A stretch of 64,000 bases of DNA, from contig NZ_MASN01000018.1 of NCBI RefSeq assembly GCF_001861355.1, positions 186,001-250,000 of the forward strand, given 5' to 3'. Under the pieces are notes generated by a model. That model was not told where the DNA came from, ran no database searches, and was given only the letters and a program-made list of their open reading frames with translations. A program made the translations under genes and the position numbers. This document shows, piece by piece, positions 19,309 to 23,720 of this stretch. The stretch comes from Natrialba sp. SSL1 (GTDB lineage Archaea; Halobacteriota; Halobacteria; Halobacteriales; Natrialbaceae). The number at the start of each line of letters is the position of its first letter. The first letter of the stretch is position 1.

Positions 19309-19932
19309 ATGGGAATTCTCGAGAACAAAGCCCGTGCACGGCTGTTCTACAAGTACCTCTCGAAGGTCTACGATCAGGTGAACCCCTTCATCTGGAACGA
19401 AGACATGCGTGCGGACGCGCTGTCGCTCCTCGATTTCGAGGAGGACATGACCGTGCTCGACGTCGGCTGTGGGACCGGCTTTGCGACTGAGGGACTCCTC
19501 GAGCACGTCGAGGAAGTGTACGCACTCGACCAGAGCGAACACCAACTCGAACAGGCCTACGCGAAGTTCGGGAAGCACGCCCCGCCGGTGCACTTCCACC
19601 GCGGCGACGCCGAACGACTCCCGTTTGCGACGGACACGTTCGATGTCGTCTGGTCTTCCGGTTCGATCGAGTATTGGCCGAATCCCATCCTCGCGCTCCG
19701 CGAGTTCCGCCGCGTCCTGAAGCCCGGCGGACAGGTGCTCGTCGTCGGCCCGAACTACCCCGACAACGTCATCGCCCAGCACCTCGCCGACTCGATCATG
19801 CTGTTCTACGACGAGTACGAGGCCGACGAGATGTTCAAACGCGCCGGCTTCGAGGACGTCAAACACGCGTTTATGGGGCCGTCCTACGACCCCGACGTTG
19901 CGATTACGACGATCGGCCGCGCACCGCAGTGA
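19309..19932 (+). CDS. SAM-dependent methyltransferase, quinone-methylase-like
   Basis: A 207-residue class I methyltransferase. The SAM-binding motif DVGCGTGFATEGLL is at about residues 47-60, with the acidic post-motif ALDQSEHQL and the later VWSSGSIEYWPNP and LKPGGQVLVVGP segments. The short N terminus, the IEYWP block and the C-terminal membrane-associating-like stretch resemble proteins annotated as MPBQ/MSBQ methyltransferases; a role in menaquinone methylation is plausible because it is divergent from the ATP synthase operon, but this is inference. The ATG at 19309 is chosen for the TATA box and for excluding the palindrome region from the protein. Confidence 0.8.
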   Translation: MGILENKARARLFYKYLSKVYDQVNPFIWNEDMRADALSLLDFEEDMTVLDVGCGTGFATEGLLEHVEEVYALDQSEHQLEQAYAKFGKHAPPVHFHRGDAERLPFATDTFDVVWSSGSIEYWPNPILALREFRRVLKPGGQVLVVGPNYPDNVIAQHLADSIMLFYDEYEADEMFKRAGFEDVKHAFMGPSYDPDVAITTIGRAPQ

Positions 19933-20094: not shown

Positions 20095-20574
20095 TCACTC
20101 CGCAACCGACTCCAGTTCGGCAACCCGTGACCCCTCTACAACGACCACCACCCGAACTGTCGATCCCGACTCGAGTGCCGGCTCGTTCGTTCCCGCAATC
20201 GTAACGCTCGCCTGCTCGCCCGTCTTCCACGTGGACTCGCTCTTCGCATTGAACGGCCCTTCCGGACTCCCGTTGAATCCCTCCGCACCGACGAACGGGA
20301 TTGGCGGCTGGTACTCGAGTGCGGTGCTATCGACGGTAACGTGCAGTGAGAGAGCCTCGACATCGAGCTTGTCGCCAGCCGTGTGTTCGAAGGTGAGTTG
20401 GCCTGTTTCGCTATCAGCTGTCAGTTCGAACGCTGCGGTGGGAGGCGGTGATCCGAGAGTCCAGCCTGACAGAACGAGTGCGATAGCCCCCACGAGAAAG
20501 ACGGTGAGGACGAGTAGCGTGATGGTGCCGACGACAGGACTGATCGCTCGCGGGAGAGCACACAGTGACCGCAC
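20095..20574 (-). CDS. Type IV pilin N-terminal domain protein
   Basis: Predicted prepilin or pilin-like surface protein. The signature RAISPVVGTITLLVLTVFLVG is the haloarchaeal class III signal: PibD-type peptidase would cut before the hydrophobic helix, which then forms the pilus core. The rest (about 110 residues) is beta-rich with HTAGDKLDVEALSL, common in this family. The frame is open to a TTG at 20670, but a TATA box lies within that extension, so a GTG start is needed: 20574 (159 aa, short basic leader) or 20607 (170 aa, leaderless). It lies downstream of nothing on its strand for 125 nt and near two other envelope genes. Confidence 0.8.
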   Translation of the reverse strand: MRSLCALPRAISPVVGTITLLVLTVFLVGAIALVLSGWTLGSPPPTAAFELTADSETGQLTFEHTAGDKLDVEALSLHVTVDSTALEYQPPIPFVGAEGFNGSPEGPFNAKSESTWKTGEQASVTIAGTNEPALESGSTVRVVVVVEGSRVAELESVAE

Positions 20575-20630
20575 CCCGTGTGACGACTGGCGACGATCTG
20601 CAGACACGGAACGCGTTGGTTTCGTCTTCC

Positions 20631-20638
20631 AATATAAA
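20631..20638 (-). promoter_or_regulatory. TATA box of the pilin gene
   Basis: AATATAAA on the plus strand (TTTATATT on the coding strand). It falls inside the longest open frame and so rules out the TTG start at 20670. It is 24-31 nt before the GTG at 20607 and about 57 nt before the GTG at 20574. Confidence 0.6.
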
Positions 20639-20795
20639 TCGTCGGGCGAAGAGGAAGAATAACAGCCCAACAGAGGGCTCGATTCCCTGTAGGCGGGCCA
20701 AGCCGGACCGAGGATGTGTTAGCTGCCACCAATCGGTCGTCAGCCGTCAACTATCAGCGCTCAGCAGTCGACTGGCAACTGGCAACTGTCGGCCG

Positions 20796-22031
20796 TCAGC
20801 CGTTCGAGACCGGTGCTGAGACGCTCTCTGTCTCACCATCGATCGTAATGTTGTACGTATCTGCGGGCGGAAGATACGTTATCGAACCGTTCTCGTCCGT
20901 TTCGCCGATTTCCTGACCATCGATTCTGATGGTCGCCTGCAGCGGTTCGCCGCTACCATCTTCGGTGACGGTCAGCTCTGTTGGACCGATTGCTGGTGTT
21001 TTGTTGAACGTTCGCTCGATACTTCCCGTCGATTTGGTTTCCGTCTCGACAGCTGGCAGTGAGCTGACCGACACCACCTGTGATTCACGGTAGACATCGC
21101 CAGTACCACCGTCGACATAGATATCTAGTTGGCCGGTATCGTGAGGAAGATCGACCCAGTAGAGGTTCTCGAGGCTATTGTCCTGATAGTGTGGTGAGCC
21201 GTGGTCGTGAGCCCATGGGTACTGCTGGGCGATGTCGTCGATCATTTGATCGATTGACTCGTACTGGTTAGGTGCATCCGCATCGCGGTTATCAAAACGA
21301 ACTGTTTCCGTTCTGTACGTATCCCCATCCAGTGCCGAGAGTCGGTACCCGTTCTCTGCGGTCTGGACGCGGAATTCATACGGCGTGCTCGAATCGCTGA
21401 CTTCGCTCGCCGATGCGATGGTTTCACGAATCGGTGTCGTGTGGAACTCTAGAAGCGTTCGATCGGCCCGGAACTGTTGTCGCTGGGAGGGAATAACGTC
21501 GATATCCTCATCGTCTGCAAGCACATCGAGCGTCTCCTCGAGGGCAGTTGCCTCGTAGTAGTTCTGTAACAGCACCTGAATCAGTTCACCGTCCGTGAGG
21601 TCTCCGGCCTGATGTTGGCTGACGGCCTCACGCTCTCTGTCCTCGAGGGCAGTAATCCGATCTTTCGTTTGATTGTAGGCGGATTCGATCTGGTCCGCAC
21701 GGTCCGACCCGTCTAGGTCATCTAGCTCACGCTCTGTGAGATTGTACTGCTCATATTGGACCTGCATTTGTGTCGTGGTTTGTGCAAATGAGCTCGCGAG
21801 ATTGGGTTCGATCGTCCCGTAGGAACCACGAATCTCTCCAGCGAGCGGTAACTGATTCGAGGTGTTTTCGATTTCGACGGGGGTTGTCTGTTCGACTGTC
21901 TGCTGTTGGAGGGCCTGCTGCTCATCGAAGTCGCCAGAGACTCCGTGGGACGGAGATGCCGCGACAACTGTGATCGCGGGCAGCGAACAAACGAGAAGCA
22001 ACGCGAGGAGGACAGGGGTCGCGCTGTTCAT
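20796..22031 (-). CDS. Secreted coiled-coil protein (DUF7096/DUF7094-like)
   Basis: A 411-residue exported protein. A Sec signal peptide spans about residues 1-25 (MNSATPVLLALLLVCSLPA, then AVVAAS-like cleavage region). Residues 60-165 are helical and probably coiled coil, with many Gln and Glu. The middle contains an IDQMIDDIAQQYPWAHDHGSPHY block and a beta-rich LYWVDLPHDTGQLDIYVDGGTGDVY segment; the last 90 residues look like a carboxypeptidase-regulatory-type beta domain (LTVTEDGSGEPLQATIRIDG). The ATG at 22031 is required by the signal peptide. DUF numbers are from memory. It is divergent from the membrane-anchored regulator gene. Confidence 0.8.
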   Translation of the reverse strand: MNSATPVLLALLLVCSLPAITVVAASPSHGVSGDFDEQQALQQQTVEQTTPVEIENTSNQLPLAGEIRGSYGTIEPNLASSFAQTTTQMQVQYEQYNLTERELDDLDGSDRADQIESAYNQTKDRITALEDREREAVSQHQAGDLTDGELIQVLLQNYYEATALEETLDVLADDEDIDVIPSQRQQFRADRTLLEFHTTPIRETIASASEVSDSSTPYEFRVQTAENGYRLSALDGDTYRTETVRFDNRDADAPNQYESIDQMIDDIAQQYPWAHDHGSPHYQDNSLENLYWVDLPHDTGQLDIYVDGGTGDVYRESQVVSVSSLPAVETETKSTGSIERTFNKTPAIGPTELTVTEDGSGEPLQATIRIDGQEIGETDENGSITYLPPADTYNITIDGETESVSAPVSNG

Positions 22032-22382
22032 TGTGCAGCCGTAGGAACTCCTGATACAAAAACTGGTCGCACTTGCGAACTCACTGGTTTTCAATACTAC
22101 ACTGATCGATTACTGTTCAGGGCAACAAGACGTAAACCGAGACACACGATCGCCATACAGAGGCAAAACGCGGCACACAGAGCCAACAACAGTAGACAGT
22201 ACTGATTTCAGGCCAATTCACGGCACAGTTGTCGCCTCTCAAACGTAGGAGTATCTTTTTCACCGTCCCAGAACTGCAGTAAGCAGTCGTTGTCCGCTCT
22301 GGAGACGTTTTACGACCGTCGGTAACGTTTTATTTGTCGATGGAAAGGGTTTTTTCCCCCGGGAAACCACCAGTTGATAGGT
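22032..22382. other. 351-nt divergent promoter region
   Basis: No gene is visible. The region is AT-richer than its surroundings. Near the right end two ACGTTTTA elements occur at about 22312 and 22326; the second forms TTTTATT (22328-22334), the best TATA candidate for the regulator gene and would give it a leader of about 25 nt. A C/T-rich run and a poly-T tract (22351-22356) follow it. Confidence 0.5.
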
Positions 22383-23720
22383 ATGCGGTTGTCCACCGCC
22401 GTTACACTCACCCTCGTTGCCCTCCTCGTCACTGCCGCTTCCGGTGCAGTGGTTGCGATGCCGACTGCGGCTGCCGGTGATCCTGTTGCGGGTCCAGATA
22501 CCGACCCCCAGGCAGGACTCGAGCAACCAGCAGTCCACTCAGCGGTTTCACCGGCCAGTGTCGACTCCTCGGACCAGAACTCCCCCGAGATTGATCACAT
22601 TATACGGCTCAACGTGAGCGACAATGGCGATGCTCACTGGAGTCACGAGTACCGGTTCGTCCTCGAGGACGAAGACGACGTAGATGCCTTCACGGAGTTC
22701 GCTGCCGATGTCGTTGCCGGCGAACGCCACGCCGAGACGCCGATACAGGCCGTTCGAAACCAGGTGTCGATAGCTGACGCCGAGACCGACCGTGAGATGT
22801 CGATCGTCGGCGCTGGCTGGGACGGCTACGACGTTCGGCCGTACGACGATGACATCGAAACAGCGGACGACCCCGACGGCACCCACGACGAAGAAATTGG
22901 CGTTATTACGTACACGTACACCTGGACGAACTTCGCAGAGACAGATGGTGATCGAATCTATCTCGGCGACGCGCTCCAGACGAGTAACAGTGACCGCCCC
23001 GCGATCACTGCACTCGGCGCGAGCCAGCGACTGGTCATCGAATCACCACCGAACTACGGGTTGCAGACGCCAACACAACTCTCCTGGAACGGCTATCACG
23101 AGTTCAGCGATGACGAGTTCGAAATCGTCTTCCTGCGTGGCGCCGAGCCGAGTAGTTCCCTTTCATGGTTCTCGCTCCCACTGGTACTTGGCGCCAGTCT
23201 ACTTGCGGCCATCCTTGCGTTTGGCGCCCTTGCTGCCTATCGGTACAGCCGGGACGACCCACTCCCCGGAGCCCCACACATTGCTTCGCTCCTCGGTATC
23301 GGGGCAACAGAGACCGACAGTGCAGACGCGAAGGCAGACACAGAGACAGAGACAAACACAGCCACTCTGTCCGACCCAAGACAGCCCGCACAGGGCAGCG
23401 CCACCCGCTCACCCGACTCTGGCTCAGGATCACCACCACCGAATACCGCTGGCGACGGCACACAACTCGAGTTCACCGAGCCTGCAGACGAGGATATCGA
23501 CCCAGAGTTGTTGAGCGACGAAGAGCGGGTACAGCGGATGCTCGCGGGCAACGGTGGCCGGATGAAGCAGGCGGCGATCGTCTCGGAGACGGGCTGGTCG
23601 AACGCGAAGGTGTCGCAGTTACTCTCGCAGATGGACGACGACGGACAGATCGAGAAGTTGCGGATCGGCCGTGAGAATCTGATTACGTTGCCGGAAGTCG
23701 ATCCGACGGAGATCGACTGA
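22383..23720 (+). CDS. Membrane-anchored winged-helix regulator (DUF7345 + DUF7343-like)
   Basis: A 445-residue one-protein sensor-regulator candidate. Order: signal peptide (1-28), extracellular beta-rich domain (about 60-250) with HIIRLNVSDNGDAHWSHEYRF, one transmembrane helix (about 262-287), an acidic Ser/Thr-rich cytoplasmic linker (290-375), and a C-terminal winged helix with MKQAAIVSETGWSNAKVSQLL. The order places the sensor outside and the DNA-binding domain inside, and suggests either signalling at the membrane or release by proteolysis. DUF numbers are from memory. Start is ATG 22383, not the TTG 9 nt before. Divergent from the secreted coiled-coil protein. Confidence 0.85.
   Translation: MRLSTAVTLTLVALLVTAASGAVVAMPTAAAGDPVAGPDTDPQAGLEQPAVHSAVSPASVDSSDQNSPEIDHIIRLNVSDNGDAHWSHEYRFVLEDEDDVDAFTEFAADVVAGERHAETPIQAVRNQVSIADAETDREMSIVGAGWDGYDVRPYDDDIETADDPDGTHDEEIGVITYTYTWTNFAETDGDRIYLGDALQTSNSDRPAITALGASQRLVIESPPNYGLQTPTQLSWNGYHEFSDDEFEIVFLRGAEPSSSLSWFSLPLVLGASLLAAILAFGALAAYRYSRDDPLPGAPHIASLLGIGATETDSADAKADTETETNTATLSDPRQPAQGSATRSPDSGSGSPPPNTAGDGTQLEFTEPADEDIDPELLSDEERVQRMLAGNGGRMKQAAIVSETGWSNAKVSQLLSQMDDDGQIEKLRIGRENLITLPEVDPTEID

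Follow-up and report, generated by a model that had tools for sequence, protein, structure and literature searches.

A membrane-tethered regulator and its exported neighbor: a possible archaeal counterpart of ToxR/ToxS-type sensors in the Halobacteria

How does a haloarchaeon relay conditions at its surface to its genes? Signalling from surface to transcription in archaea is little known beyond the two-component systems, and a locus in Natrialba sp. SSL1 raises the question in compact form. In the window (the whole 64,000-nucleotide stretch that was analyzed, positions 186,001 to 250,000 of contig NZ_MASN01000018.1), a sequence-only reading had picked out a cluster of three genes, encoding a type IV pilin-like protein, an exported protein, and a regulator with an outside domain, one transmembrane helix, and a winged helix inside the cell. 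All three are present and intact (Table 1), and the regulator gene is, as claimed, divergent from that of the exported protein, the two being separated by 351 bp. The same reading suggested a sensing unit in which the exported protein or the pilin is the signal or target of the regulator. Do these genes work together and, if so, which of them?

Table 1. Features of the locus, with positions in the window
Feature	Positions	Strand	Basis and remarks
MenG/UbiE-type methyltransferase	19309..19932	+	Pfam/NCBIfam methyltransferase matches; convergent with pilin gene
Type IV pilin-like protein	20095..20574	-	PF07790 Pilin_N, E=1e-11; downstream of DUF7096 gene, same direction
Exported protein, 410 aa	20796..22031	-	Signal peptide, helical bundle (DUF7096), alpha/beta domain (DUF7094), Fn3_arc
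Putative TATA region of DUF7096 gene, CGACCAGTTTTTGTATCAGG	22050..22069	-	Sequence and position; predicted function
Class-wide conserved element, GATGGAAAGGGTTTTTTCC	22339..22357	+	Regulator core-promoter position; imperfect palindrome; candidate autoregulatory site
Predicted membrane-tethered transcription regulator, 445 aa, N-out/C-in	22383..23720	+	Pfam, hydropathy, AlphaFold2; predicted function
DUF7345 domain (outside), residues 76-225	22608..23057	+	PF24036, 7e-33; model pLDDT mostly >90
Transmembrane helix, residues 258-289	23154..23249	+	Hydropathy and AlphaFold2
Cytosolic winged helix (DUF7343), residues 376-437	23508..23693	+	PF24034, 2e-30; Foldseek

The regulator has hydrophobic segments at residues 1 to 19 and 267 to 285, and two such segments are found in 72 of 75 orthologs. 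Its AlphaFold2 model consists of an ectodomain (residues ~68 to 250), the transmembrane helix, a disordered linker of about 80 residues, and the winged helix, with good model quality for the ectodomain and winged helix. The latter matches solved winged-helix regulators with a probability of 1.00 (Foldseek), and most of the invariant columns of the regulator alignment fall within it. Structural comparison of the ectodomain gave only low-TM matches (the FMO protein and an OST subunit), which were rejected as evidence of homology.

The exported protein matches DUF7096 (2e-65), DUF7094 (4.5e-38), and Fn3_arc (2.7e-26). Its sole hydrophobic segment is N-terminal, and 78 of 79 orthologs likewise have one segment. 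The AlphaFold2 model (pLDDT, 87.5) shows a helical bundle and beta-rich domains. This fold had no match among PDB structures at E≤0.001, and none of the best 50 was described as a lipocalin; searches with sequence profiles likewise gave no significant PDB match. DUF7094 may be a PepSY-like domain. A weak, sub-threshold PepSY match (E=0.0014) was seen in the middle of a DUF7096-like protein at another locus (L133:5539-7119). The third gene ends with a stop codon at 20095, and its start is uncertain (GTG at 20574 or TTG at 20670). Its product scores 46 bits against PF07790, over the cut-off of 25.2, and thus carries an N-terminal pilin domain, while its score against NCBIfam TIGR02537 is slightly under the cut-off.

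Is the arrangement conserved? DUF7096 is found in 374 of 391 genomes of the class Halobacteria, including 121 of 125 in the window's family, the Natrialbaceae (f1), and in 26/26 and 59/60 genomes of two other families (f2 and f4). A homolog of the regulator (E≤1e-28) occurs in 120 of the 125. Several absences are due to strict thresholds: a profile places the regulator beside DUF7096 in G003 and G005, and the block is present in G213, G323, and G417 too. To examine linkage, profiles were run on 80 stretches, 16 kb long in most cases, that represent seven families (f1 to f4 and f7 to f9). DUF7096 was found in 79 of these loci, the regulator in 75, both in 74, the methyltransferase (menG) in 73, and the pilin in 69. 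At 74 of the 79 DUF7096 loci from these families, the DUF7096 and regulator genes are adjacent and divergent, with 32 to 382 bp between them. The order menG-pilin-DUF7096-regulator is conserved across the Halobacteria, with menG as the edge of the block, a membership that is defined by synteny only. Rare linkage of these families would have spoken against the sequence-only reading; the survey of neighbors found them linked almost everywhere in the class.

Five DUF7096 loci have no regulator. One lies at a contig end (L075), and another holds a DUF7096 gene other than the block copy, which sits in L160 (L088). In L057 (G386), DUF7096 is away from the block, which keeps menG, pilin, and regulator (L151). 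In the remaining two, L068 (G122) and L107 (G176), regulator and DUF7096 are genuinely unlinked.

Could the cluster be frozen core synteny, held among A-type ATPase, menG, and isoprenoid genes with no functional coupling? The neighborhood does lie beside core genes in most genomes, but the block is whole where its flanks have been rearranged. The ATPase genes and the GGPPS/DUF373 genes have traded places on either side of an intact block in L103 and L105, and in L092 the flanks are rearranged as well. The pairing also recurs at unrelated loci in co-duplicated paralogs. We therefore consider this explanation very unlikely.

Those paralogs are informative in their own right. By comparison of coordinates, 30 of 36 extra, more weakly matching DUF7096-like genes have a regulator paralog no more than 1 kb away. 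Fifteen of these pairs are divergent and 15 are co-directional, so the two genes stay paired with or without a common promoter region. The regulator and DUF7096 trees divide into identical subfamilies, A, B, and C. A and B are single clades in both (support, 99 to 100); C is one clade in the DUF7096 tree (support, 94) and needs two changes in the regulator tree, where two solo regulators are placed beside or inside it. Since both trees contain the same subfamilies, the regulator and DUF7096 were duplicated as a pair. In subfamily B modules, the regulator is accompanied by a long DUF7096-like protein and, in most cases, by an exported third protein that has DUF7345 as its only domain; in subfamily C modules, a short DUF7096-like protein comes after the regulator.

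Exported DUF7345-only proteins were seen by paralogous pairs at L132 to L136, L141, L142, L145, L147 to L149, L154, and L155. Some have PGF-CTERM-like tails, and the PGF-CTERM anchor scored over its cut-off in one of three tested (L135). It is possible that they are surface-anchored decoys or third sensor subunits. There is also a supported clade of DUF7345-DUF7343 regulators that had no DUF7096 neighbor in the stretches examined (L118, L123 to L127, and L129), one of them from the window's own genome. Because such paralogs exist, DUF7345 regulators can probably function without a DUF7096 partner.

Do the two proteins also change together? The outside parts evolve fast and the winged helix slowly: median distances are 1.66 for the ectodomain and 1.89 for DUF7096, compared with 1.03 for the pilin, 0.39 for menG, and 0.33 for the winged helix. 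Controlling for menG and atpI, the partial correlation between ectodomain and DUF7096 divergence is 0.39 (reached in 0 of 500 permutations; 0.36 on ranks). It rises to 0.64 in 40 genomes outside the Natrialbaceae and is -0.05 within the window's own family (n=16). Because the correlation disappears there, coevolution is taken as no more than moderate support for the pairing.

What of the pilin? Its correlation with the ectodomain is 0.07; it reaches 0.37 within the 16 Natrialbaceae, with little outside them. No pilin ortholog was found on inspection of L043, L045, L053, and L113, and none occurs in the paralogous modules inspected. The pilin is coupled less tightly than the regulator-DUF7096 pair and is lost in some genomes. 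The proposed sensing unit is thus supported for the regulator and the exported protein, through class-wide linkage, repeated pairing and co-duplication of paralogs, and correlated divergence over the whole set (absent within the Natrialbaceae alone), and not for the pilin as signal. The pilin and menG are conserved neighbors that need not belong to the sensor.

Which DNA might the regulator act upon? An element with the class-wide consensus GATGGAAAGNGTTTT lies at the regulator's own core promoter and not at that of DUF7096. In 72 of 75 loci it can be recognized ahead of the regulator, with little variation in its distance from the gene; the string ATGGAAAG occurs in 49 of 75 intergenic regions, compared with 0.4 expected, and the copy in Table 1 is the only strong match in the window. 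It stays with the regulator where DUF7096 is unlinked (L069 and L150) and is absent at the regulator in every paralogous (B, C, or solo) locus scanned. Across 30 genomes, the exact pattern matched 27 times: 23 of the matches belong to the regulator gene, the other 4 lie immediately upstream of a DRG/OBG-like GTPase gene, and the reversed pattern gave no match. No covariation of the winged helix with the element was found.

That the element is an autoregulatory site is a reasonable but unproved reading. It sits where a leaderless or short-leader mRNA would have its core promoter, the place at which BRE/TATA is expected. Conservation alone is no proof of an operator, because the promoter of the A-type ATPase gene atpH is conserved even better (29.4 versus 25.6 bits); its class-wide element, TTTCGCAACTACCNTATA, was seen in 62 loci (L038 to L117). 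In the window's genus, all seven genomes have a close variant of the regulator's element in the promoter of the GTPase gene (L177, minus strand, upstream of 1473; L206 to L235), and four other Natrialbaceae have exact copies there. Across the class, the region at this position degenerates to a generic BRE/TATA, and for this reason the gene was dropped as a second target.

These observations bear on a rival explanation, in which DUF7345 lets the regulator respond directly to some other cue, and the neighboring DUF7096 and pilin genes, switched by it, would be its targets only. Divergent genes over a short shared region are the classic arrangement of a regulator and its target, and the solo regulator paralogs fit as well. 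The element, however, is at the regulator's promoter and remains there after unlinking, whereas the DUF7096 promoter shows a generic signal of 14 bits across the class. Half of the paralogous pairs are co-directional, which also counts against it, and a mere target would not be expected to diverge in correlation with the ectodomain. We judge this explanation unlikely, although it is the strongest of the alternatives.

The reading we favor, and consider fairly likely, is that the regulator signals jointly with the DUF7096 protein, its outside domain working with this exported partner. The regulator would insert into the membrane by means of its Sec signal, with DUF7345 facing outward and the winged helix in the cytosol. 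The DUF7096 protein would dock on DUF7345 as a sensor or co-sensor of some envelope condition, and its binding could shift the cytosolic winged helices or change how they pair. These helices would act on DNA with the regulator still in the membrane. Among possible targets, the first to consider is the regulator's own core promoter with its palindrome-like element. Several points count against such a pair: the missing correlation within the Natrialbaceae, the unlinked genes in G122 and G176, the displaced DUF7096 in G386, the regulator paralogs that had no DUF7096 neighbor in the stretches examined, the lack of covariation between winged helix and element, and an element that sits at the BRE/TATA position and is similar to the promoter of a GTPase gene with no relation to the pair.

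Might the winged helix instead leave the membrane? A signal involving DUF7096 could trigger proteolysis near the membrane and free the linker and winged helix. The long disordered linker suits this idea, which agrees with all of the linkage data, but the genes annotated in the conserved block, which cover part of the neighbors, include none for a protease. We consider such release improbable. A wider proposal, made tentatively and at slightly under an even chance, is that the pair is a core sensing system of the whole class: the exported glycoprotein would be the obligate partner of the tethered regulator. On this view, the system would have arisen separately from the ToxRS type and been co-duplicated into two or more further versions, some of which include another copy of the sensor domain, anchored at the surface and serving as a decoy or a third subunit.

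Can the pair be studied? Nearly every member of a large archaeal class has it, no function has been assigned to its genes, and likely counterparts occur in the genetically tractable Haloferax volcanii, which opens the pair to experiment. HVO_0306 and HVO_0307 are the likely equivalents of the subfamily A regulator and DUF7096 protein, judged by description, gene order, and neighbors rather than by alignment. There, a gene for an HTH glycoprotein adjoins one for an exported glycoprotein. HVO_0306 is a "probable transmembrane glycoprotein/HTH domain protein" with an O-glycopeptide and is an O-glycoprotein candidate, and HVO_0307 is a Sec protein with three N-glycosites (PMC8241124). HVO_0309 is annotated as menG (PMC8305020), which fits the block. 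The neighbors HVO_1944 and HVO_1945, both N-glycosylated (PMC8241124), match a subfamily C pair in their descriptions and in the gene order seen in other Haloferax genomes; a CdrS motif is also listed for the region upstream of HVO_1944. No function is assigned to any of the four in PMC8241124, and their glycosylation fits exposure outside the cell.

How does the pair compare with known systems? The literature searched yielded no paper naming DUF7096, DUF7345, DUF7343, or DUF7094 and no description of this regulator family or its exported partner. The sequence-only reading held that the tethered layout is little studied in archaea. Such regulators are in fact already known. A survey of transmembrane transcription regulators (TTRs), which combine a DNA-binding domain and at least one transmembrane region in one protein, counts 1,384 in archaea and gives single-pass as the commonest layout (PMC10269533). 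The regulator, with DUF7343 and its transmembrane helix in one chain, has this structure; in the passages of the survey consulted, no description of the DUF7345/DUF7343 family or of a conserved haloarchaeal exported partner was found. ArnR and ArnR1 of Sulfolobus acidocaldarius, in the portions of the reports consulted, are membrane-bound one-component regulators acting at archaellum and pilus gene promoters (PMC6396743, PMC13286277). They are, like this regulator, archaeal and membrane-bound, but are set apart by domain position, their HTH being in the N-terminal part (they are also phosphorylated by ArnC) and the winged helix here C-terminal. Those portions describe no exported partner for them.

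The nearest known mechanism is, on our best reading, the co-component system of ToxR/ToxS and VtrA/VtrC (PMC9214523). Shared with these are a single-pass tethered HTH regulator with an outside domain, an adjoining gene for a separate exported partner (here at 74 of 79 loci and for 30 of 36 paralogous genes), and fast-evolving outside parts. Evolutionary coupling of the two outside parts is a possible further likeness, their partial correlation being 0.39 overall, 0.64 outside the Natrialbaceae, and -0.05 within that family. The bacterial genes form operons, running in the same direction and often overlapping, whereas the main pair here is divergent and only some paralogous modules are co-directional; the partner there is lipocalin-like, and here it combines a helical bundle, an alpha/beta domain, and Fn3. 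Because of these two differences, the pair is treated as an analogue and not as a member of the co-component class. In addition, the partner here has no further transmembrane helix, no sequence homology was found between the systems, and this pair, a putative heterodimer, is archaeal. The polarity is also reversed, the regulator being N-out with its DNA-binding domain C-terminal. The pair nonetheless looks like an undescribed archaeal counterpart of the bacterial ToxR/ToxS-type sensors and, if so, the principle of a regulator plus an exported partner would have arisen outside the bacteria as well, with other folds and the opposite membrane polarity.
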